From IMG/VR virus record IMGVR_UViG_3300040801_002990, positions 1 through 21,296 of that record: a DNA stretch of 21,296 bases; one strand, given 5' to 3'. The position numbers were made by a program, and so were the translations under genes. This document shows, one piece after another, positions 512 through 18,715 of this stretch. The DNA is from a virus. The notes below the pieces were generated by a model. It was given only the letters and a program-made list of their open reading frames with translations, was not told the origin of the DNA and did not search any database. Within the stretch, counting starts at the first letter, position 1, and every line of letters begins with the position of its first letter.

Positions 512-808
512 ATGAAAACAATGAAACTAGAAGAAACAGAAACATATCAGGTTTACCAAGAGCTTATTCAGGCTCAATTTGAAACCGCCGTATTGTCAAT
601 CACAAAAATGTTCGAACATTCCTATGACGAGAATCACAAGTATGCAGCAATCATAGTAGACACTCCCTCTCATAATGACTTACAACAAGTTTGGAAAAAA
701 GTGAAGTCAACAACTCACGAAATCGTCTTGATAAAGTTTGCCAATTCAGGTGAATTGGGTTACGAAGTGAGAAAGCCAGCATCCTTAAAAGAGCTGGTTG
801 AAGAATGA
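512..808 (+). CDS. Hypothetical 98 aa protein, first gene of the helicase/IbrAB operon
   Basis: Product unknown. The frame is open from a TTG at 443, but the promoter overlaps that part, so the ATG at 512 (start MKTMKLEETE) is the sensible start. The protein is soluble with no signal or membrane segment. It has a helical, acidic N-terminal half and a probable alpha/beta C-terminal half containing AAIIVDTP and HEIVLIKFANSGELGYEV. Its TGA overlaps the next ATG (ATGA), which indicates translational coupling. It is AT-rich compared with the phage structural genes on the other strand, which fits an accessory, recently acquired module. No family is recognised. Confidence 0.7.
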   Translation: MKTMKLEETETYQVYQELIQAQFETAVLSITKMFEHSYDENHKYAAIIVDTPSHNDLQQVWKKVKSTTHEIVLIKFANSGELGYEVRKPASLKELVEE

Positions 809-1128
809 AAACGCTTTGCTACTCAATTAGACTCAAAAGCCTGGTCAGTATATCTGACCGGGCATATAAAGCGACAGCTTTTGATGGATCTGAAGATATC
901 ATACCTAAATCACAAGTGTTTGGATCTGATTACAGTGTAGGTAAGTCTGAAGCTTACTGGATTGCAGCTTGGGTACTTAAGAAGAAAACTTTACAGTATT
1001 CGCATAAAAAACAAGCTTGGTTTGATCGGGAAACATTAAAAATGCTTCCAACGAAAACAATTCGGGTTCACAAGCCTGATTATATTAAACCAATTGATTC
1101 GAAGCCAGATGAAACCCTTACTCGATAG
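805..1128 (+). CDS. Hypothetical 107 aa protein coupled to the helicase gene
   Basis: Product unknown. It starts at the ATG that overlaps the previous stop and ends 20 bases inside the helicase gene, so the three genes form one translation unit. The protein has no membrane segment. A central region, TAFDGSEDIIPKSQVFG followed by SEAYWIAAWVLKKKTLQYS and KKQAWFD, looks like a small beta-rich fold with a tryptophan-rich helix. The C-terminus is basic and lysine/proline-rich. Its fixed place directly before a SNF2-like ATPase suggests a partner or substrate-recognition subunit, but nothing in the sequence proves this. Confidence 0.7.
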   Translation: MKTLCYSIRLKSLVSISDRAYKATAFDGSEDIIPKSQVFGSDYSVGKSEAYWIAAWVLKKKTLQYSHKKQAWFDRETLKMLPTKTIRVHKPDYIKPIDSKPDETLTR

Positions 1129-2305
1129 TCAATCTACCGCATTTCAAAAACTCCGATCCCTTAAGGTCGGAGCCTTGTTTATGGAAGCCGGAACGGGTAA
1201 GACACGGACAGCATTGGAACTGATTAGAAGCGCAAACCCCGATTACATTCTTTGGCTCACACCCTACCAAACAAAAGACAACCTTCGGGCAGAGTTAGAC
1301 AAGTGGGGTGGACTGGATTGTGATATTGTAGGGGTGGAATCACTCAGCAATAGCGACCGGGTGTATCTGAAGCTTCGCAAAAAGTTGGAGCAGGTCAACA
1401 ATGCCTTCATTGTAGCTGATGAAAGCCTGAAAATAAAAAATAGTGATGCCAAGCGCACCCAGCGCACTATTGCCCTGGGCCGGATGTCAACTTATAGGTT
1501 GATTTTGAACGGTACTCCCCTTAGCAGGAACTTATTGGATCTGTGGAGCCAGATGGATTTCCTGAGCCCCAAAATCCTCCAGATGAGCGAGACCCAATTC
1601 AAGAATACCTTCTGCGAATGGGTGCAGATCACTTACCATTCACCCGGCCACGGCAGGAGCTTTACTAGGGGATTTATCAAGAAGTATCACAACCTCGATT
1701 ATCTGTATTCTCTCGTTCAGCCCTACATCTTTGAGAGCAAACTTAGCTTAAGTATTGGCCAGCAACACATTGACTTAAGCTATTGCTTAACCGATGAGGA
1801 GGTGGCTGAACACAATCGGCTGAAAGAAAAATACCTAGATGATGAAATGCTGCTGGCGCGGAGTAACAATATATTCCTGGAACTCACGCAAAAGATGCAG
1901 CATAACTACAGCCGGAGCCCTGAGAAATTTCGCCTCGTGGATAAAGTACTGCAACAGGAAGACCCTTCCAAAGTGCTGATCTATGCCAAATATATTGATA
2001 CCCAGGAGGAGCTACAGAAGCGATACCCAAGGGCGCGTATCATGAGTCTGGGCAAGCACGCCTATGGACTGAACCTCCAGCAGTATACCCGAATTATCTT
2101 TTTCGATAAGACCTGGGACTATGCACAGCGGGAGCAGGTGGAGCACCGTATATACCGGGAGGGACAAACAGATGATAGTATCTATTATGACCTGACCAGC
2201 AATGCTGGGCTAGATTCGCTCATCAATCAGAACATTAAGAAGAAAACCAATATGCTCCAGATATTTAAGCAATTGACTAATCATGAATTGAAAGAACTGC
2301 TATGA
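1109..2305 (+). CDS. SNF2-family helicase-like ATPase/translocase
   Basis: A superfamily 2 ATPase of 398 residues, which would use ATP to move along or remodel DNA. Motif I is MEAGTGKTRTA (about 25-35), motif II is DESLKIKN (104-111, the SNF2-type DExx-IKN form), motif III is LILNGTPLSRN (131-141) and is followed by a DLWSQMDFLSP stretch typical of SNF2 proteins. The C-terminal lobe has GLNLQQ and QVEHRIYREGQ (343-353), matching motifs V and VI. It is short for the family and has no obvious extra domain, as is usual for phage versions. The frame opens at TTG 1094, but the ATG at 1109 is preferred. The stop overlaps the next ATG (ATGA). Confidence 0.88.
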   Translation: MKPLLDSQSTAFQKLRSLKVGALFMEAGTGKTRTALELIRSANPDYILWLTPYQTKDNLRAELDKWGGLDCDIVGVESLSNSDRVYLKLRKKLEQVNNAFIVADESLKIKNSDAKRTQRTIALGRMSTYRLILNGTPLSRNLLDLWSQMDFLSPKILQMSETQFKNTFCEWVQITYHSPGHGRSFTRGFIKKYHNLDYLYSLVQPYIFESKLSLSIGQQHIDLSYCLTDEEVAEHNRLKEKYLDDEMLLARSNNIFLELTQKMQHNYSRSPEKFRLVDKVLQQEDPSKVLIYAKYIDTQEELQKRYPRARIMSLGKHAYGLNLQQYTRIIFFDKTWDYAQREQVEHRIYREGQTDDSIYYDLTSNAGLDSLINQNIKKKTNMLQIFKQLTNHELKELL

Positions 2306-3597
2306 AGAAATACCTAGATAAGAATGTTTACGAAGCATTCGTAGAGCGGATAAACTATGTGTTTGATGAGTTTGACCTGGTTTATTTCAGCATTTCTGGC
2401 GGAAAGGACTCATCTGTGATGGTTCAGCTGGCGAATAACATTGCGAAGGAAAGAGGGAGGATGTTTGATGTTTTCTATGTTGACTACGAGGCGCAATATC
2501 AAGCCACGATTGACCATGTGTATGAACTGAAGCAGCTTTCTCAGATTCGTGATTTCTATCACTTAACACTTCCTTTTAATTCGCACAATGCAAGTAGCAT
2601 TTTTCAGCCGCATTGGCAGCCGTGGAATCCCGATGAAAAAGATAAATGGGTAAGACCCATGCCTAATGATTCTATAAACATAAACAACCAGCCTTTCGGC
2701 GATCTATTCATCCAAGGCGAAGAAGTAGAAGATTTTATGATGAAGTTTCCAAAATGGCTTATGAAGAAACACAGCGCAGATAAAGTGGCTTGCCTAGTTG
2801 GAATCAGGTCTGATGAAAGCATGAACCGGTTTCGCGCGATTGCTTTTGGGAAACACATCTATGAAGGTAAGAATTGGACAACTCAAATCGGCCGGAATAT
2901 CTACAACGCCTACCCAATATATGACTGGCGAACCGAAGACATTTGGGCCGCTGTAGCTAAGTTCGATTTAAAATTCAATCAGGTCTATGAAATGCTCTGG
3001 AAGAATGGTATGAGCATTCATGAACAGCGTATCTGTCAGCCATATGGACCAGATCAGCGTGTTTCGCTTAATCAATGGGCTGTGCTTGAGCCTGACACTT
3101 GGCATAAGGTTGTGAACCGAGTGAGTGGGGCAAACTTTGGAAACATCTATTGTAAGAGCTCATTACTTGGCCACAACGGAACTGAAAAGCCAGCACATAT
3201 GAGCTGGGAAGAATACACGGTGTTCCTGCTAGAGAGCCTTGGAATGTATTCACGTGAGCTAATGCTTCACTATGTGCGCAAAATCAACATCTTCTTTGAT
3301 TTTTTCGAACAGGAAGAAGGAATCAAAAAGCATCAGATTCATGATGAACTTTCAACTTCATACATCAAAGAAAACCTAGCCCCAACAGGTAAATGGATAC
3401 ATTGGAAGCGAATAGCTCGGTGTATCGAAAAAAACGACTTCGCATGTAGATCTTTGAGTTATGGTATCACAAAGGCAGACCGAGAAGATATGATCAAACT
3501 AAAAGAAAAGTGGGGTGCTTTACTTGGAATCCAGCAAACCACAAAAGAAATGCGAGAACTTTCTAAAAAAATAGGATATGAGCCGAAAGAAAATTGA
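2302..3597 (+). CDS. ibrA-like: DUF3440/IbrA-like PP-loop protein (PAPS reductase family)
   Basis: A 431-residue member of the adenine-nucleotide alpha-hydrolase (PP-loop) superfamily. SISGGKDSSVM (30-40) is the pyrophosphatase loop, and the later CLVGIRSDESMNR segment matches the arginine/serine motif of PAPS reductase relatives. I see no C-terminal ECGLH-type motif carrying the redox cysteine of true PAPS reductases, so sulfite production is unlikely; substrate adenylation is more plausible. Length and the long C-terminal extension fit DUF3440, which includes E. coli IbrA. IbrA works with IbrB, and an IbrB-like gene follows directly with a 20-base overlap. The true substrate is unknown; DNA, RNA or protein modification is inference. 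Confidence 0.85.
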   Translation: MKKYLDKNVYEAFVERINYVFDEFDLVYFSISGGKDSSVMVQLANNIAKERGRMFDVFYVDYEAQYQATIDHVYELKQLSQIRDFYHLTLPFNSHNASSIFQPHWQPWNPDEKDKWVRPMPNDSININNQPFGDLFIQGEEVEDFMMKFPKWLMKKHSADKVACLVGIRSDESMNRFRAIAFGKHIYEGKNWTTQIGRNIYNAYPIYDWRTEDIWAAVAKFDLKFNQVYEMLWKNGMSIHEQRICQPYGPDQRVSLNQWAVLEPDTWHKVVNRVSGANFGNIYCKSSLLGHNGTEKPAHMSWEEYTVFLLESLGMYSRELMLHYVRKINIFFDFFEQEEGIKKHQIHDELSTSYIKENLAPTGKWIHWKRIARCIEKNDFACRSLSYGITKADREDMIKLKEKWGALLGIQQTTKEMRELSKKIGYEPKEN

Positions 3598-4108
3598 ATT
3601 CCCCGTTCTAAACGTTAAGATGGTGCCGTTGGATAAGCTAGTGGCTAATGATTACAACCCAAACTCAGTGGCTCCACCAGAGATGAAGCTACTAAGGTTA
3701 AGCATCGAAGAAGACGGCTATACTCAACCAATTGTAGTGTATTACAATAAGGATGCAGACCAGTATGTGATTGTGGACGGTTTTCACCGATATCGCTGCG
3801 CTAAGGAATACTTTAAGCTGGATGAAGTGCCGGTGACTGTTATTGACAAACCGATCAATAACAGAATAGCAAGCACTATACGGCATAATCGCGCCAGAGG
3901 CACACACGCTATCCGCGGGATGAGCGATATTGTATTGTCATTGGTTCGTGGTGGATGGAGTGATGAGGATATAAGCAAGCATCTTGGAATGGATGCGGAA
4001 GAAGTTATCCGTTTAAAGCAGATCACTGGATTAAAAGAAGCGTTTGCTAACCACGAATTTTCCAAGAGCTGGGAGGAGTTCGAATCAAAAATTAAAGCAC
4101 AAATCTGA
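3578..4108 (+). CDS. ibrB-like: IbrB-like ParB/sulfiredoxin-fold protein
   Basis: A 176-residue protein with a ParB N-terminal-type domain. VPLDKLVANDYNPN (16-29), VDGFHRYR (66-73) and RHNRARGTH (102-110) correspond to the conserved boxes that bind nucleotide in ParB/Srx-fold proteins. A small helical region with a likely helix-turn-helix (GGWSDEDISKHLGMDAEEV) follows. It is far shorter than chromosomal ParB and has no partner ParA here, so a partitioning role is unlikely. The start at 3578 has AGGA five bases upstream and overlaps the IbrA-like gene by 20 bases. In E. coli, IbrA and IbrB act together in regulating immunoglobulin-binding genes; the biochemistry is unresolved. Confidence 0.85.
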   Translation: MSRKKIEFPVLNVKMVPLDKLVANDYNPNSVAPPEMKLLRLSIEEDGYTQPIVVYYNKDADQYVIVDGFHRYRCAKEYFKLDEVPVTVIDKPINNRIASTIRHNRARGTHAIRGMSDIVLSLVRGGWSDEDISKHLGMDAEEVIRLKQITGLKEAFANHEFSKSWEEFESKIKAQI

Positions 4109-4111
4109 GCT

Positions 4112-4396
4112 ATGAAAAGCAATCAAAAAGACCAACAATACCTAACCACCGCCAAGAAGAAAATAGGTGAAGCGATAGCCTTCGCCATTAAAGAGCGCGG
4201 ATACACCAAGGACAGACTTGCACAGGAGTCTGGCGTAAGCAAGACCATCATTTACAAGGTGCTGAGAGGTCAGAACTATGAGATCAATGCAATTGTGCGC
4301 ATCATGCGCGTACTACAGATGCACCTTGAGATGAGCTTAATGTCTGCGGATAATAATGTGCATACCATGACAGGCAATAAACCCCCTAAGAATTGA
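4112..4396 (+). CDS. Cro/C1 (XRE)-type helix-turn-helix protein
   Basis: A 94-residue DNA-binding protein that begins three bases after the IbrB-like stop. IGEAIAFAIKERGYTKDRLA followed by QESGVSKTIIYKVLRGQ (about 18-54) is a typical five-helix lambda-repressor fold with the recognition helix around SKTIIYKVL. The rest, INAIVRIMRVLQMHLEM, completes the helical bundle. It probably regulates this operon, and the palindromes at 379-424 are candidate sites. It could also be the antitoxin-like or immunity component of the module. There is no sign of a peptidase or dimerisation extension as in full C1 repressors. Confidence 0.8.
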   Translation: MKSNQKDQQYLTTAKKKIGEAIAFAIKERGYTKDRLAQESGVSKTIIYKVLRGQNYEINAIVRIMRVLQMHLEMSLMSADNNVHTMTGNKPPKN

Positions 4397-4462: not shown

Positions 4463-4684
4463 ATGGAAAAAGATAGAGGAATAAAAATTACAAATGTAGA
4501 AAGTGATAAGCAATGCAGTATAGGTGTTGTTAGCAGTAGTGCTTTTTTATGTGAAATACATTTTGGAACAGAAAGCTGGAAGACAGTAATATTAGCTGAA
4601 GACGAAACTGACATACCTATAAAAGCAGCAGAGCAGTACGGAAATGTAAGGTGTGAAATAATTGATGTTTACGACTGGTTTTAG
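4463..4684 (+). CDS. AT-rich orphan 73 aa protein
   Basis: Product unknown. The 73-residue acidic protein begins MEKDRGIKITNVESDK and ends IIDVYDWF, and looks like a small all-beta or alpha/beta soluble domain. Base use is strikingly AT-rich compared with its neighbours, and it sits 66 bases beyond the helix-turn-helix gene rather than overlapping it, so it is probably not part of the coupled operon. It is flanked by a bulged repeat on the left and an extended hairpin on the right, the layout of an integron-type gene cassette. I saw no promoter of the TAnnTTTG type directly upstream. Confidence 0.6.
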   Translation: MEKDRGIKITNVESDKQCSIGVVSSSAFLCEIHFGTESWKTVILAEDETDIPIKAAEQYGNVRCEIIDVYDWF

Positions 4685-7832: not shown

Positions 7833-8767
7833 CAGATTCCAATTGAGTTGTCATGATTGATGTAGGAGAGAAAGTGCTCTTGATCTTCTCGCACTTCACG
7901 ATCGTTTGGAAACCAGGTCAACCACTTTTTTCCAGCAGCTATCCAAGACGTGACTGGGTCAGGATGAGCGGAGAAGTCTTCTTCGGTGAATCCAGCAAAC
8001 CACGCGCTTTTTCCTTCCACTGCCGCAACGGGCTGCATACTACCTGCAGCAGATGGCTTCTTCTCAAAGAACAGGATCTGGTAATCCCGTACCACAGAAG
8101 TCTGACGAAGCTCCGAGGTCATGCCAATGGTAGGTAAGATGAAGTCATCTACGGCCGCCTTGAGCTTCTCTGCAACATCCACTTCAAGGCTCTGATCACT
8201 GAGAGGCTTGGTAAGGATCTCGGTTAGGTACACGTAGTCGCCCGCGTCATTTTTCACATAGAGCTTTGACACTACATAGAACTGGCCATCGTATAGCTCA
8301 CCGGCACTAAGCGCGGTTCTGATCCACTCGTGCCAGGGCTCAGTGCTCAGTGTTTCAAGCGCTGTTTCAACCCCAACTGCGCGCTGGGTGAAGTCCACGA
8401 ACCAGTCACTACCAATATTCACCACGTCGATGGTGAAGTTGGCGTTGATCATCACATTCCCTTCAAGCCTCGTCTTGATAGCCAGCGCTGCACCTTGTCT
8501 TGAAGATATAGGCGTGGCATAGATCACCGTATTGGTGGTGTCAGCATTGAACTCTGCAAGGGAGCCAAACTTCACTTGTATGTCTACATTGAAGTCATCC
8601 CAGGCAACTTGGAAAGAGTCACCTTCAACTGGAGTAGTAACGATCTCCAGTCGGCAAGTACCTGCCTGTCCATCGAAGTCCTTGTAGTTATCGGTGGTCA
8701 TAGCGAAGATCATCTTGTTCTTCACAAGACCAACATCGCCCGGTTGTGATGTGATAGTTACTGCCAT
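7832..8767 (-). CDS. Phage structural protein, tail or fibre-like (311 aa)
   Basis: A 311-residue protein starting MAVTITSQPGDVGLVKNKM. The N-terminal half is rich in valine, threonine and aspartate and reads as a series of beta strands (FQVAWDDFNVDIQVKFGS, then INANFTIDVVNIGSDWFVDF), as in tail-tube or fibre domains. The C-terminal half mixes helix and strand and contains aromatic clusters (KSAWFAGFTEEDFSAHP, SWIAAGKKWLTWFPN) that may be surface-binding. Its start overlaps the previous gene by 10 bases. Length would also suit a capsid protein, but nothing in the sequence looks like the HK97 fold, so I leave it as a tail candidate. Confidence 0.6.
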   Translation of the reverse strand: MAVTITSQPGDVGLVKNKMIFAMTTDNYKDFDGQAGTCRLEIVTTPVEGDSFQVAWDDFNVDIQVKFGSLAEFNADTTNTVIYATPISSRQGAALAIKTRLEGNVMINANFTIDVVNIGSDWFVDFTQRAVGVETALETLSTEPWHEWIRTALSAGELYDGQFYVVSKLYVKNDAGDYVYLTEILTKPLSDQSLEVDVAEKLKAAVDDFILPTIGMTSELRQTSVVRDYQILFFEKKPSAAGSMQPVAAVEGKSAWFAGFTEEDFSAHPDPVTSWIAAGKKWLTWFPNDREVREDQEHFLSYINHDNSIGI

Positions 8768-9285
8768 ACGTCATCATTGGTTTCAAGAAGGTTTACCTCG
8801 TCAACGTAGTTATAGGTGAAGCGCATCCCGAAGCAGTTTGTAATGATGGGACCAACGGCCATCACTTCAACTGATCCTTCATCGAACTCAATCAGGTTGG
8901 ATGCCTCGTCTGCGTCCTCGCCCTGGAATGCCAGCTCAGCATCTTGGTACATGCGCTGCATGAATTGAAGGCCGACTTTCTCAGATGCGTCTTGGACCCG
9001 ATCGATCATCTTGTGATCTTGTGGAGCGCATGAGGCTGCAAGGATGAATGCGCCACCCCATACACGCTTTGGGAAGTCGCTGTCTTGGTTCCTGAGGTTC
9101 CACTCGATAGGCTCCAGGGCAAGAAACAGCTCTTCTTGAGGCGGAAGATCACTGATTCCACCTTCCAAGATCTCCTTCAAGCCTAGCTCGAAGAAACGCG
9201 GACGCTTCTCCGTGTGTTTCACTCGGATGTGCTCCGTGGCCAGTCGTCGCATATAGGCGCGGTATTGATCTGTGCTGAAACTCAT
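8758..9285 (-). CDS. Phage protein of unknown function, possible tail completion (175 aa)
   Basis: A 175-residue acidic protein. The N-terminus (MSFSTDQYRAYMRRLATEHI) is a basic helix. The middle, EEIKGG-free but with PPQEELFLALEPIEWNLR and RVWGGAFILAAS, looks alpha/beta, and the C-terminus is beta-rich (MRFTYNYVDEVNLLE). Size, acidity and position between the 261 aa protein and the fibre-like protein fit a head-tail or tail completion protein. Both ends overlap the neighbours by 4 and 10 bases. No family is recognised, so the functional suggestion is from context only. Confidence 0.6.
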   Translation of the reverse strand: MSFSTDQYRAYMRRLATEHIRVKHTEKRPRFFELGLKEILEGGISDLPPQEELFLALEPIEWNLRNQDSDFPKRVWGGAFILAASCAPQDHKMIDRVQDASEKVGLQFMQRMYQDAELAFQGEDADEASNLIEFDEGSVEVMAVGPIITNCFGMRFTYNYVDEVNLLETNDDVWQ

Positions 9286-10067
9286 GATTCTTGCAATTGG
9301 TCAAGCACGCGGAACACGTCCGGTACCATCATCTTATTGATCTGGTCAATGGTGCCGACTTTCTCTCCGGCAATGTTGAACGGAAGGCTCAATGCCCATT
9401 CAGCAGGGTCTTCATCGCTTGCTTGTAGTGCACGAATGGGATCTGGTTCTTGTTCGGTTTCCTCCTTGGGTTGCTCAGGTTCTGCCTGAATACCCATCAC
9501 ACCATTACGAAGGCCCATGTAGTTGAGCACCATAGCCAACCGGTCAGCCAATGGCCAACCTTGCACAACCTTATACACGGTGGGAGACGCGCTTGGACGA
9601 TACTCATCTCTGTAGTAGATGAAGGCGATCAAGCAATTTAAGTCGTATTCATCCCGAGACTCTAGGTAATCTGAAAAGAACATCTCCGCTTTCGCGAATT
9701 GATGCCACTGGAGGTTCTCCAGCCCATCAGCTGGACCGCTAAAGCCTCGGTATTCTGAGCAAGCCGAATGATAAAAGACTGGCCGGAGTTTCAACACGAA
9801 GTCAATGGTCTCGTAGAGCTGCACCATAGCCTCTACTCCATCATCATCCGCCATCAGAAGCTCACCGAGTTGCCTCAGCCGCTTCTTGGGAAGCACCGTA
9901 AGCTGAGAAAGCACTTCACCACGATGCACATCCATGGCCAGCGGATCACCGAAGATGATCTTCTGTACCACTTTGAGGTCATCGAAGTTCAACTCATCCC
10001 ATGACTCCTTGACTTCGAACTCGATTGGAGCCTTTCTTCCTGGTATTTCAATCCTTACATTCTTCAT
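9282..10067 (-). CDS. Phage protein of unknown function (261 aa), tail-assembly context
   Basis: A mostly helical 261-residue protein. The N-terminus forms a small strand pair (VRIEIPGRKAPIEFEVKESW), then a long helical domain contains FSGPADGLENLQWHQFAKAE and CLIAFIYYRDEYRPS, a pattern I have seen in uncharacterised Bacteroidetes phage proteins. The last 60 residues include a low-complexity acidic linker (QPKEETEQEPDP). The preferred ATG at 10067 overlaps the holin stop as TGATG; a GTG at 10070 is also in frame. Position before the fibre-like genes would suit a tail assembly chaperone, but no slippage site or tape-measure gene follows. Confidence 0.6.
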   Translation of the reverse strand: MKNVRIEIPGRKAPIEFEVKESWDELNFDDLKVVQKIIFGDPLAMDVHRGEVLSQLTVLPKKRLRQLGELLMADDDGVEAMVQLYETIDFVLKLRPVFYHSACSEYRGFSGPADGLENLQWHQFAKAEMFFSDYLESRDEYDLNCLIAFIYYRDEYRPSASPTVYKVVQGWPLADRLAMVLNYMGLRNGVMGIQAEPEQPKEETEQEPDPIRALQASDEDPAEWALSLPFNIAGEKVGTIDQINKMMVPDVFRVLDQLQES

Positions 10068-10495
10068 CACTTAGAAACTCCTCGAGCCTTTTCAATGGTT
10101 CTGTAAGCACCAAGACCAAGCATACCCAGCAAGATGGGCATCAAGTGCTCCATCTGGAGCGCGGGTGGATGAGCTAGTCCTGGTGTAAGGATGGTCATTC
10201 CCCAGGCGATGAGATCTCGGATGATGAAATTGTAGAACAAAGCCAATCCACACACCCAGCCAATGGCAGGACGCCAGCCAGCCACAAACAGAGATCTGTG
10301 CCTTGCCTCGATCTTGTTCAGCTCTTGCATCACTTCAGAAGGCCTCTGACGAAGCTTCTCGAGGATCTCTTGATGGGTAAGCTTCTCATCCTTGGATGTG
10401 AAGATCTTGTCGATGGCGTTTCCAACCGCCTCAATAGGTTCTGCTGCGGCTGCTCCGCCAGCTGTTCCGAGTATCTTTCCGAGTATTCCAGGCAT
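10067..10495 (-). CDS. Holin, three-helix GTA type
   Basis: A 142-residue membrane protein expected to permeabilise the inner membrane so that the endolysin can reach peptidoglycan. The N-terminal half is soluble and helical (residues 25-65). Then come SLFVAGWRPAIGWVCGLALF and YNFIIRDLIAWGMTIL as adjoining membrane helices, and a last one at LMPILLGMLGLGAYRT. The GWRPAIGW motif at 73-80 is the hallmark of the 3TM holin family first named from gene-transfer agents. The C-terminus is basic, as usual for holins. It sits 11 bases after a 31-residue membrane peptide gene and next to the endolysin gene, giving a compact lysis cassette. Confidence 0.82.
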   Translation of the reverse strand: MPGILGKILGTAGGAAAAEPIEAVGNAIDKIFTSKDEKLTHQEILEKLRQRPSEVMQELNKIEARHRSLFVAGWRPAIGWVCGLALFYNFIIRDLIAWGMTILTPGLAHPPALQMEHLMPILLGMLGLGAYRTIEKARGVSK

Positions 10496-10506
10496 TGAAA
10501 ATGGAT

Positions 10507-10602
10507 TTAGATTGTGATCATGATGAGGAGCGCGGCCGCAGCGATCAGGAGTAGAATCGCTGCGACCTTCGCTGAATTGATATGGTCATCGGATGGCATC
10601 AT
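10507..10602 (-). CDS. 31 aa single-span membrane peptide of the lysis cassette
   Basis: A short frame that starts with ATGATG overlapping the endolysin stop (ATGA). The peptide has a polar N-terminus (MMPSDDHINSAK) and one continuous hydrophobic stretch (VAAILLLIAAAALLIMITI) ending at the C-terminus. The overlap with the endolysin, the short gap before the holin and the clean membrane helix support a real gene. By position it could be a second holin, an antiholin or a pinholin-type regulator; which of these is inference. There is no lipobox, so it does not look like an outer-membrane spanin. Confidence 0.62.
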   Translation of the reverse strand: MMPSDDHINSAKVAAILLLIAAAALLIMITI

Positions 10603-11420
10603 GCGGTAGCTTGGATGTGCATCCAGTCATAGTTTTTCTCGCGTCCTAGGGAAACGAATCCTTCTGCCTCCCAGATCTTCCACCACTGATCATATACCGG
10701 CTTTGCAAACTGAGCTTGCCTGGCTGTCCACCGGAGTCGGTTTCGATCAGGGTCAAAATCAAAGGCCGCAGCAAACGCATGTGTGCTCAAGGTGCTTCCA
10801 CCTCTCTTCTTACGGAGGTTGAAGCATCCACCAAAGAGGTTTAGGCCGAGCTCTTCGATCTGCTCATTTCCGTAGACTTCTTGCACCTTATGCAGCACTC
10901 GAAGCACCGGATCTTCGAGTTTCTTATTCACGGTCATGCGCCGGGTAGTGTGTTCGGGGTTCCAGGCAATGCGCATAGCAAATGGAAGTTCAATCAAGCG
11001 ATGGCAGTCAGGATCACCAGGCATTCCATAGAATTCTTTCATGCTTTCCATATCACCCGCAGGGAATCCATTTGGGTTCTTCGTGGTTGGAAAAGCAACC
11101 TCCGCTTCATCATCACGCCATCGAGGAACCGCCTTACCACCATTGAGCGTCTCAATGGTCTCAGAAAGGCTATACTCTGTGCCGGGCCCGTAGTAACCGT
11201 CAACAACAAGCGTCTCAGACAGTCCGATCATGTTCAAAATGATCTGGCAGCTTGCAATTAGCCTGCGCTTAATATCCCAATTACAAGCATCTGGTCTGTA
11301 CTGAGCCAGAATCTTCATAATAGCCTGATGCGTTCGGTTTCCAGCAATGCCGTCTACCGGTCCCGCGTCATAACCAAGGTTGTTGAGTTGTAGTTGTACG
11401 AATTTGATAAGCTCCTTCAT
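10599..11420 (-). CDS. Endolysin: peptidoglycan-binding repeats plus M15 peptidase
   Basis: A 273-residue cell-wall hydrolase. Two peptidoglycan-binding-like repeats occupy the N-terminus: LGYDAGPVDGIAGNRTHQAI (15-34) and a weaker VVDGYYGPGTEYSLSETI (72-89). The C-terminal domain has GGSTLSTHAFAAAFDFDP and YDWMHIQA, giving H214, D221 and H268 as the zinc ligands expected of M15 (D-Ala-D-Ala carboxypeptidase or L-Ala-D-Glu endopeptidase). There is no signal peptide, so release depends on the neighbouring holin. Having the binding domain at the N-terminus is common in such lysins. The gene is unusual in lying between head and tail genes instead of at the operon end. Confidence 0.85.
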   Translation of the reverse strand: MKELIKFVQLQLNNLGYDAGPVDGIAGNRTHQAIMKILAQYRPDACNWDIKRRLIASCQIILNMIGLSETLVVDGYYGPGTEYSLSETIETLNGGKAVPRWRDDEAEVAFPTTKNPNGFPAGDMESMKEFYGMPGDPDCHRLIELPFAMRIAWNPEHTTRRMTVNKKLEDPVLRVLHKVQEVYGNEQIEELGLNLFGGCFNLRKKRGGSTLSTHAFAAAFDFDPDRNRLRWTARQAQFAKPVYDQWWKIWEAEGFVSLGREKNYDWMHIQATA

Positions 11421-11444
11421 AGTTCATTAAAGTTTGGATGAAAC

Positions 11445-14809: not shown

Positions 14810-14950
14810 CTAGTCTAGCGCATCAATGCCGGCGCTGTCTAGTCTTCCTTTCTCAAACATCCAATAAGCCTCTGTGAAGGGCGTGTAGGGATTGGATTCG
14901 TTCATCAAGTCTTGTCCGCTATTGTAGGCGGTTGTTTCCTTACTTGACAT
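14810..14950 (-). CDS. 46 aa acidic microprotein downstream of the ArdC-like gene
   Basis: A short frame starting at ATG 14950 inside the end of the ArdC-like gene (11-base overlap), with a strong Shine-Dalgarno GGGAGG six bases upstream, unusual in this window. The peptide begins MSSKETTAYNSGQDLMNE and ends KGRLDSAGIDALD; the middle, YTPFTEAYWMFEKG, is aromatic and likely helical. A terminator follows directly, so it is the last gene of this unit. The SD, overlap and terminator together make a real gene likely. Function is unknown; by position it may be a partner or decoy used together with the ArdC-like protein. Confidence 0.7.
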   Translation of the reverse strand: MSSKETTAYNSGQDLMNESNPYTPFTEAYWMFEKGRLDSAGIDALD

Positions 14951-15362
14951 TCTTACCTCCCTTTTCCCTTGGTTCTACTTGGTTCGAGCTGAACAGATAT
15001 GCAAGCGGATAGAATTCGTCTTTCTTGCTGTTCTCTTCTTCGCTCTCCCCTTCTTTGGCTTCTTTGGCGTCCTCTTCGCTTTCAATCTTGCGAGGGCGAC
15101 CCCATACAAGAAATGCGCTTTCGCCTTTTTTCACTTGGTGTCCAAGCTTTCGCCATTGTTTGTAGGTGTGGAATTCTGCTTCCTCACCTTCTTGCTCTTG
15201 GTAGAGAATTAGTAAGTACTCGTTAACGGTTTCACATTCTCCCGACTCCACGAGTAACTCGGCATCCTTGGAAAGGCTACGCAAAAAGTTCCTTTTCGCT
15301 GCTCGCGTTTCGAGATTTGGATTCAATACTGTAACTTCGGTTTCCTCAATTGATTTAGACAT
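14940..15362 (-). CDS. ArdC N-terminal-domain-like protein (possible antirestriction)
   Basis: A 140-residue acidic protein. FHTYKQWRKLGHQVKKGE followed by SAFLVWGRPR (64-91) and FYPLAYLFSSNQVE (117-130) match the ssDNA-binding N-terminal domain of ArdC, the antirestriction protein of plasmids and mobile elements that shields incoming DNA. Between these lies an acidic low-complexity insert (92-116, mostly Glu, Lys and Ser). Full ArdC is about twice as long and carries a metallopeptidase domain; here only the N-domain is present, with no HExxH motif. It may be a stand-alone DNA-binding or anti-defence protein. A terminator lies just upstream (15381-15409), so expression may depend on read-through. 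Confidence 0.7.
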   Translation of the reverse strand: MSKSIEETEVTVLNPNLETRAAKRNFLRSLSKDAELLVESGECETVNEYLLILYQEQEGEEAEFHTYKQWRKLGHQVKKGESAFLVWGRPRKIESEEDAKEAKEGESEEENSKKDEFYPLAYLFSSNQVEPREKGGKNVK

Positions 15363-17839: not shown

Positions 17840-18434
17840 CAACTAACTCGAAGTCTATGTCCTCAGCATCTACTTGCCTTCTATTCTCGAGCTTACGTCG
17901 GAATGCTTCTGCTTCCTCTTTGCTCATGCGTTCTCCCACGAGCTCCGGATGATCACCAACGATCAAAGGAATAGGGTTCTGCAGTGCTTCAAGTGGAATC
18001 TCATCTGTAGCTTTCAGATCTGCGATCTCAGCGAGCACCTTGGCCATCGCTGGTATTGACTTCCACTGGCCAGCCTGCTCCATCTTCCTGAGTAAGCTGG
18101 TGTACCATTCCTCCAGGAACACCCTTCGGTACTCCTTGTTTGATCGGTTCAATGGACCGAATACCCGCTCCATAAGCTCGAATCTTCTGTAGGCAGTTGC
18201 CAGGTGAATGCCCTTCCCGTCAGGATCCTGATCCTTCTTTCTCTTCATGAATAGCGCTACCACCGTACGCTTTGACTTGTAGTGCGACATCCACTTGTCT
18301 AGTAGGCAGATATCATCGTACTCCTCTTGCACCTTAGGTGGAAGCGTGATGTTGGCCTCCGGGTTCGATGCGTATTCGAATAGTAGGTCAACGTTGTTCT
18401 TTTCTTCAGTGAAGCGTTGCAGTTCTGAACTCAT
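17829..18434 (-). CDS. Terminase-associated protein, possible small subunit (201 aa)
   Basis: A 201-residue charged helical protein directly before the large terminase and overlapping both neighbours. The middle has KRTVVALFMKRKKD then LATAYRRFELMERVFGPL, a likely helix-turn-helix, followed by WYTSLLRKMEQAGQWKSI and a helical oligomerisation-like region. The C-terminus is acidic (VDAEDIDFELVDGE). This layout of a DNA-binding N-terminal part and an acidic tail fits a small terminase subunit that recognises the packaging site. The 94 aa protein upstream is a second candidate, so the two may share the role. Confidence 0.55.
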   Translation of the reverse strand: MSSELQRFTEEKNNVDLLFEYASNPEANITLPPKVQEEYDDICLLDKWMSHYKSKRTVVALFMKRKKDQDPDGKGIHLATAYRRFELMERVFGPLNRSNKEYRRVFLEEWYTSLLRKMEQAGQWKSIPAMAKVLAEIADLKATDEIPLEALQNPIPLIVGDHPELVGERMSKEEAEAFRRKLENRRQVDAEDIDFELVDGE

Positions 18435-18715
18435 GCGATTCGATTTAGTTTCTCTTGCTCAATGAGCTTCATTGCCAGAGATTGCGCTGGACTACTCCCC
18501 TGGGCAGCACATTCAATGATGCTCTTCCTTACTCGAGCTTCGGCTGTGAGTCTTGCTTTCATGATTACTCCGTAGATCTGGGAGCTATGGTCTTCCATTT
18601 CCAGAGAGAACTCGTCCGGTGAGATCTCCAGCATTGTGCAGATCTCCGTGTCCGTCATCATTCCCTCGGCCGCAAGCGTTAGCGTTTCTATTTCCTGTTC
18701 AGTCAATGATCTCAT
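18431..18715 (-). CDS. Small helix-turn-helix protein, terminase small-subunit-like (94 aa)
   Basis: A 94-residue helical protein. LTEQEIETLTLAAEGMMTD followed by TEICTMLEISPDEF (about 4-36) is a helix-turn-helix of the type in phage small terminases, and ARVRKSIIECAAQGSSPAQ then SLAMKLIEQEKL is the usual second helical part (A..G....A). It overlaps the PLD-like gene by 17 bases and the next by 4. It could recognise the packaging site on phage DNA. The size is at the short end for small terminases. Confidence 0.6.
   Translation of the reverse strand: MRSLTEQEIETLTLAAEGMMTDTEICTMLEISPDEFSLEMEDHSSQIYGVIMKARLTAEARVRKSIIECAAQGSSPAQSLAMKLIEQEKLNRIA

Follow-up and report, generated by a model that had tools for sequence, protein, structure and literature searches.

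What is the function of a compact set of viral genes that encode a SNF2-family ATPase, an IbrA-like PP-loop enzyme and an IbrB-like ParB-fold protein? The set lies at positions 512–4396 of a stretch of 21,296 bases, here called the window, which constitutes a whole IMG/VR virus record. An earlier note had proposed from the letters of this DNA that the helicase and the IbrAB pair form a coupled system that could modify, mark or sense DNA, for instance for phage-borne defence or superinfection control, and had pointed to the phosphorothioation chemistry of DndC. In the following, the coupling, the individual proteins and the candidate roles are considered in turn.

Layout of the cassette

442–472, + strand: match to a Bacteroidota-type promoter, TTTG-N19-TANNTTTG (given also as TTTG-N19-TATATTTG), 40 bases ahead of the first ATG
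512–808, + strand: P0001, 98 aa, orphan small protein
805–1128, + strand: P0002, 107 aa, PHROG_5809 family (2.6e-46), predicted small beta-rich protein with the C-terminal tail HKPDYIKPIDSKPDETL
1109–2305, + strand: P0003, 398 aa, minimal SNF2-family ATPase (SNF2-rel_dom PF00176, 7.6e-15)
2302–3597, + strand: P0004, 431 aa, IbrA-like N-type PP-loop enzyme (DUF3440 PF11922, 9.6e-29; PAPS_reduct PF01507, 1.6e-13)
3578–4108, + strand: P0005, 176 aa, IbrB-like ParB/Srx-fold protein (ParB_N PF02195, 1.9e-9) with the nucleotide motif DGFHR
4112–4396, + strand: P0006, 94 aa, HTH regulator (HTH_3, weak, 8.6e-5)
4463–4684, + strand: P0007, 73 aa, open frame 3' of the cassette, without relatives and of doubtful membership

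The cassette at 512–4396 consists of six plus-strand genes, most of which overlap. The earlier note had described ATGA or 20-base overlaps; the coordinates confirmed four of them (ATGA at 805–808 and 2302–2305, 20 bases at 1109–1128 and 3578–3597), whereas the ParB and HTH genes are separated by 3 bases. The direction of the cassette is opposite to that of the phage genes, all of which, as far as identified, lie on the minus strand from 4750 rightward and include holin, endolysin and terminase large subunit. The operon is also more AT-rich, with a GC content of 0.38–0.45 in comparison with roughly 0.45–0.53 for most of the remaining window. The description of a single promoter was borne out as well, since the match directly upstream is the sole Bacteroidota-type one in the window, although, with 0.36 expected by chance, its position is a better argument than its uniqueness. 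A cluster containing HTH proteins was found again directly after ParB in relatives, and P0006 is probably an autoregulator of the cassette.

Elsewhere on the minus strand, a protein with an ArdC N-terminal domain (14940–15362; PF08401, 2.2e-9; PHROG anti-restriction, 4.4e-8) is possibly an anti-restriction gene product of the same phage, judging by these profile matches. A small protein at 18434–18715 shows a weak match to a sigma-factor PHROG (7.5e-4).

Linkage and distribution of SNF2, IbrA and IbrB

We fetched three locus sets without using neighbours: viral contigs were searched for relatives of the helicase and, separately, of IbrA, and bacterial and archaeal genomes, one for each species, for relatives of the helicase. 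Neighbours were counted by profile searches over all open frames, with contig ends set aside. The results showed that IbrA lies within 4 kb of SNF2 in 106 of the 108 testable loci (44/45 viral, 62/63 bacterial), the exceptions being L051 and L109; other absent ParB genes sit at contig ends. Four distant SNF2 loci (24–28% identity, L052–L055) are devoid of IbrA. The coupling of the helicase with the IbrAB pair, which the earlier note had left open to refutation by rare joint occurrence, thus withstood this check. In the reverse direction, ParB was found within 3 kb of IbrA in 79 of 80 viral loci, whereas this SNF2 was within 4 kb of IbrA in only 20 of the 80, suggesting that IbrAB constitutes the core and SNF2 a dedicated add-on. 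Since the other 60 IbrAB pairs have no such SNF2 nearby, the motor is not always needed. Among phage records, 114 contain the helicase (90 from Flavobacterium, 18 Streptococcus, 3 Lactobacillus, 2 Listeria, 1 Fusobacterium), and 215 match IbrA.

The partners have been exchanged. The SNF2 of the window is 64–68% identical to those of six loci (L067, L021, L006, L005, L007, L008) whose IbrA proteins are only 29–43% identical to that of the window, and the closest IbrA sequences (76% in L033, 70% in L002) are paired with more distant SNF2 genes. ParB precedes IbrA in L006 and also in L009, where SNF2 is 60% identical. In the IbrA tree, SNF2-linked sequences appear in the clade of the window and in the most distant clade (Flavobacterium type, branch 0.83). 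Because the SNF2 and IbrA halves recombine yet remain together, this is better evidence for a joint function than a single inherited block would be, and we regard such a function of SNF2, IbrA and IbrB as well supported and very probable. At the level of sequence and neighbourhood, the three were shown to be a selected functional unit, both in phages and on chromosomes. An open literature search, with most subscription papers outside its reach, returned no paper describing a SNF2-IbrA-IbrB system. A Crocinitomicaceae locus (L086) contains two divergent IbrA-ParB pairs, at 1168–2846 and 8001–11423, only one of which adjoins SNF2.

The distribution of the cassette extends beyond phages, which is a new finding: Listeria has it as a core locus on the chromosome, and it is also present in phages without lysogeny genes. 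The Listeria cassette (small protein, SNF2, DUF3440, ParB) is flanked by pyrH-frr and tkt-lexA and corresponds to lmo1309–lmo1311, which have been classed as core genes or Listeria sensu stricto genes (PMC7020466, PMC5736727); inter-protein coevolving residues have been reported for Lmo1309 and Lmo1310 (PMC7020466). Between Listeria cossartiae and L. marthii, dN/dS was approximately 0.02 for SNF2, IbrA and ParB alike, this being the only informative pair, as synonymous sites were saturated in most pairs, those with the window included. In a Puniceicoccaceae chromosome the cassette is found among purA, clpC-like and purL-like genes, and some chromosomal copies are island-like. In Flavobacterium columnare phage FCL-2 it sits between terminase and portal, and for this phage neither integrase or lysogeny genes nor lysogeny have been seen (PMC4541368). 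Two database entries deserve a comment: (i) L215 (NZ_LR134403.1), a 407-kb L. monocytogenes 'plasmid 6' with a DNA polymerase III alpha gene, pyrH, frr and tkt, resembles a piece of chromosome mislabelled as a plasmid, and (ii) two short phage records of about 3 kb (OR848947.1 and OR848903.1, Listeria phage LM 4-14-1), which show the same identity in their match to the cassette of the Listeria chromosome, are possibly host DNA.

These findings bear on the suggestion that the cassette is a moron for anti-phage defence or superinfection exclusion. Its own promoter match, opposite strand and lower GC content would fit such a role, as would the island-like chromosomal copies and the matches of P0003 to the SNF2 parts of the PADLOC profiles ZorD, DpdE and DrmD. 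The latter, however, reflect generic SNF2 similarity, and the cassette contains no recognised nuclease, toxin or membrane effector. Comparison with the anti-phage systems of PADLOC-DB gave no full-length match to a core protein, just partial matches to SNF2, PP-loop and ParB domains. The occurrence in FCL-2, together with the Listeria core locus, makes defence or superinfection control less likely as the sole role. If the function benefits free-living chromosomes and lytic phages alike, it would, as an argument, fit work on resident DNA better than phage killing. We consider the defence explanation quite unlikely.

The motor and the small proteins encoded upstream

P0003 displays Walker A GTGKT, DES, LNGTP and YREGQ, and the columns GTGK, DES, LNGTP and R..GQ are conserved in the family, so that the SNF2-type helicase motifs I, II, III and VI are kept. 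Its best match among solved structures was PDB 1z63, a SNF2/Rad54-family helicase (5.8e-17). SNF2 proteins can displace proteins bound to DNA. The similarity to Rad54 would agree with a role in DNA repair or fork processing, useful to lytic phages and bacteria alike, in which SNF2 would be a remodeller of the Rad54 kind, IbrB would load onto DNA and IbrA would activate a ligation-like step. The neighbours of SNF2-less IbrAB pairs (Erf, RecE, NinG, replication initiator and helicase genes) and the occurrence on chromosomes point the same way. On the other hand, there is no obvious repair step for a PP-loop adenylating enzyme, and the form with SNF2 is often located outside the replication module, either after the lysis genes or between terminase and portal. 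Repair appears an unlikely explanation.

Of the two small proteins upstream of SNF2, for which the earlier note had suggested a search for homologues, P0002 has conserved relatives ahead of SNF2, but for P0001 no relative was found in domain and family libraries, the fetched loci or phage records. In the P0002 family alignment, H89 and L105 are invariant and P91 is conserved in more than 90% of the sequences. Searches of its AF2 model (mean pLDDT 90) against PDB and BFVD with Foldseek gave nothing significant, and with VIA-align the best match was a ribosomal protein (Z 3.9, rmsd 3.2 over 73 residues), followed by an SH3 domain at Z 3.5. The modelled fold is small and mostly beta, and our claim goes no further.

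The small open frames directly 5' of SNF2 belong to several families. By profile comparison, P0002 and clusters 8, 26, 122 and 986 look remotely related, while clusters 14, 41 and 179 showed no remote relation to this group. Many of these proteins end in HxPxx[IVLM]x9-11L. Of the 560 open frames in the 2.5 kb ahead of SNF2, 83 had the strict form, HxPxx[I/V]x9-11L, as against 3 of the 3294 frames elsewhere (30/471 upstream when the P0002 family was left out; counted by families, 8/303 upstream and 3/2093 elsewhere), and 77 of 144 SNF2 loci have a tail-bearing upstream frame; as the pattern was defined after inspection of the sequences, these counts are descriptive. The tail, newly noticed here and common to unrelated families, is probably a docking peptide for the motor, and P0002 is a probable SNF2 adaptor. 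A VRR-NUC-helicase pairing was also considered for the small upstream frames, and Pfam found no VRR-NUC in them. In L048 (5080–5451), L024, L026 and L050, the tail-bearing small protein has a segment resembling the C-terminus of Cas_Csd1 (PF09709, 3.9e-9). Four clostridial loci (L119, L122, L124, L127) encode, 5' of SNF2, a protein of 380–400 aa with an N-terminal zinc-ribbon-like CGH..CPxC motif (phrog_16123), which is perhaps a replacement adaptor.

The IbrAB pair, candidate roles and known systems

In an alignment of 185 IbrA sequences, S32, GKDS at 34–37, G167xR169xxE172S173xxR176 and P205xxDW..D213xW215 were conserved at 97% or more, a motif layout also seen in PAPS reductase, CysD and FAD synthase. 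In agreement with this, the N-terminal 260 residues of the AF2 model (mean pLDDT 80) matched FAD synthase (Z 15.3, rmsd 2.8 over 173 residues) as well as APS/PAPS reductases and ATP sulfurylase (Z 13–15). AMP transfer by FAD synthase and ATP sulfurylase needs no catalytic cysteine. No cysteine of IbrA was invariant in the 185 sequences: the best column, C382, reached 82% and the others less than 80%. The proposed DndC-like sulphur chemistry thus gained no support. A Dnd/Ssp-like phosphorothioation or other sulphur modification of DNA could be argued from the relation of the enzyme to PAPS reductase, the weak matches to DndC profiles (around 1e-6), the several frequent cysteines and the ParB fold that DndB likewise possesses (PMC12704722). 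However, no cysteine column attains 90%, and the cassette has no gene for a desulfurase, DndD/E or SspB, which makes this explanation very improbable.

In the IbrB family, D67, G68, H70, R71, T100, N104, G108 and H110 are invariant and form the motifs DGxHR and TxRHNxARGxH. From its position, DGxHR would be the P motif with which the ParB/Srx fold binds nucleotides (ATP, CTP or GTP); fusions of this fold to DNA methyltransferases are common in phages (PMC12704722). P0005 matched profiles of ParB-bearing methyltransferases, and in Dpd systems a DNA-base-exchanging enzyme has the ParB-like ATPase DpdB as its partner (PMC12839542). A canonical ParABS partition role was rejected, as the cassette contains no ParA and TIGR00180 scored below its cut-off (34.7 vs 58.45 bits). 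Judged by their alignments, SNF2, IbrA and IbrB were all shown to retain nucleotide-binding residues.

The sole function attributed to the IbrAB pair in the literature found is prophage gene activation in E. coli (PMC4541368). The pair together with SNF2 might accordingly be a transcription co-activator that changes phage or host gene expression, a notion in line with the annotation 'co-activator of prophage gene expression' and with the E. coli work summarised in the same paper. The HTH gene adjoining ParB and the general ability of SNF2 proteins to clear DNA-bound proteins are consistent with this. Nevertheless, the invariant PP-loop and DGxHR residues suggest an enzyme, and the effect in E. 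coli may be indirect; we find a co-activator improbable.

As a single guess we prefer DNA marking, because the type of PP-loop enzyme is combined with a DNA motor and with a ParB/Srx partner that elsewhere is paired with DNA-modifying enzymes (DpdB with TGT, methyltransferase fusions, DndB). The operon would be a self-contained DNA-acting machine for adenylation-dependent marking of resident DNA, to which SNF2 gives access, a proposal that we hold tentatively and at less than even confidence. The tail would dock the small protein onto the motor and supply the target, and SNF2 would travel on double-stranded DNA and expose it. IbrB would bind nucleotide via its DGxHR pocket and hold the DNA, and IbrA would spend ATP on adenylating either a substrate within DNA or a small molecule that is later put on DNA. 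The DNA of the cassette-carrying element would be marked in this way, with protection from nucleases or labelling as self as the most likely purpose, and the HTH protein would tune expression. The substrate could instead be RNA, protein or a small molecule. Whether the cassette represents a new class of DNA-marking machine, in which an adenylating PP-loop enzyme without sulphur chemistry is joined by an NTP-binding ParB/Srx protein and a SNF2 motor whose tail-docked adaptors are interchangeable, and which lytic phages, prophages and a Listeria core locus have in common, is a more speculative matter, and we think it rather doubtful.

IbrAB/DUF3440 genes are widespread in phages, where their usual label is PAPS reductase or auxiliary sulphur metabolism. 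Three observations argue for a DNA-acting enzyme and against a metabolic gene: this SNF2 is almost obligatorily linked to the pair, selection on the cassette is strong in Listeria, and phages without lysogeny genes have it as well. The long unexplained pair is thereby made testable in easy systems such as Streptococcus thermophilus phage CHPC1148 and, if it has the locus, the non-pathogenic Listeria innocua.

Among known systems, Dnd/Ssp likewise combines an N-type PP-loop enzyme with a ParB-fold protein (DndB), but the cassette lacks the invariant cysteines, the cysteine desulfurase and DndD/E; domain and family searches of the seven plus-strand proteins of the window found no DndA/IscS, DndD or DndE. 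Dpd (DpdA, DpdB, DpdE) similarly joins a modifying enzyme, a ParB-like ATPase and a SNF2-like protein. Its modifying enzyme, however, is a TGT and not a PP-loop enzyme, its large restriction module is absent from the cassette, and the same kind of searches revealed no TGT-type DpdA among the cassette proteins. In Fusobacterium phage phiFN37 (L062), the IbrA-ParB-helicase cassette has, about 1.4 kb away, a further ParB-like gene with a queuine tRNA-ribosyltransferase-like gene behind it (9745–11030), a hint that two ParB-partnered nucleic-acid modification modules adjoin there.

The cassette has what characterises IbrA and IbrB: DUF3440 with a PAPS-reductase-type PP-loop, and a ParB-fold partner overlapping by 20 bases. 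In IbrAB of E. coli phage PhiR5_2 and YbdN/YbdM of K-12, too, the DUF3440 PP-loop enzyme adjoins the ParB-fold protein and the genes overlap, but in the locus inspected, L064, neither SNF2 nor a tail-bearing small protein accompanies the pair. The region of Flavobacterium phages FCL-2 and 6H shares a P0002 relative (62% identical), SNF2 (43%), ParB and IbrA; it differs in that ParB precedes IbrA, IbrA is only about 30% identical and the helicase is annotated 'hypothetical protein'. Finally, Listeria lmo1309–lmo1311 shares the tail-bearing small protein, SNF2 (52%), DUF3440 and ParB in a single run, and differs in lacking surrounding phage genes and in being a chromosomal core locus between pyrH and tkt.
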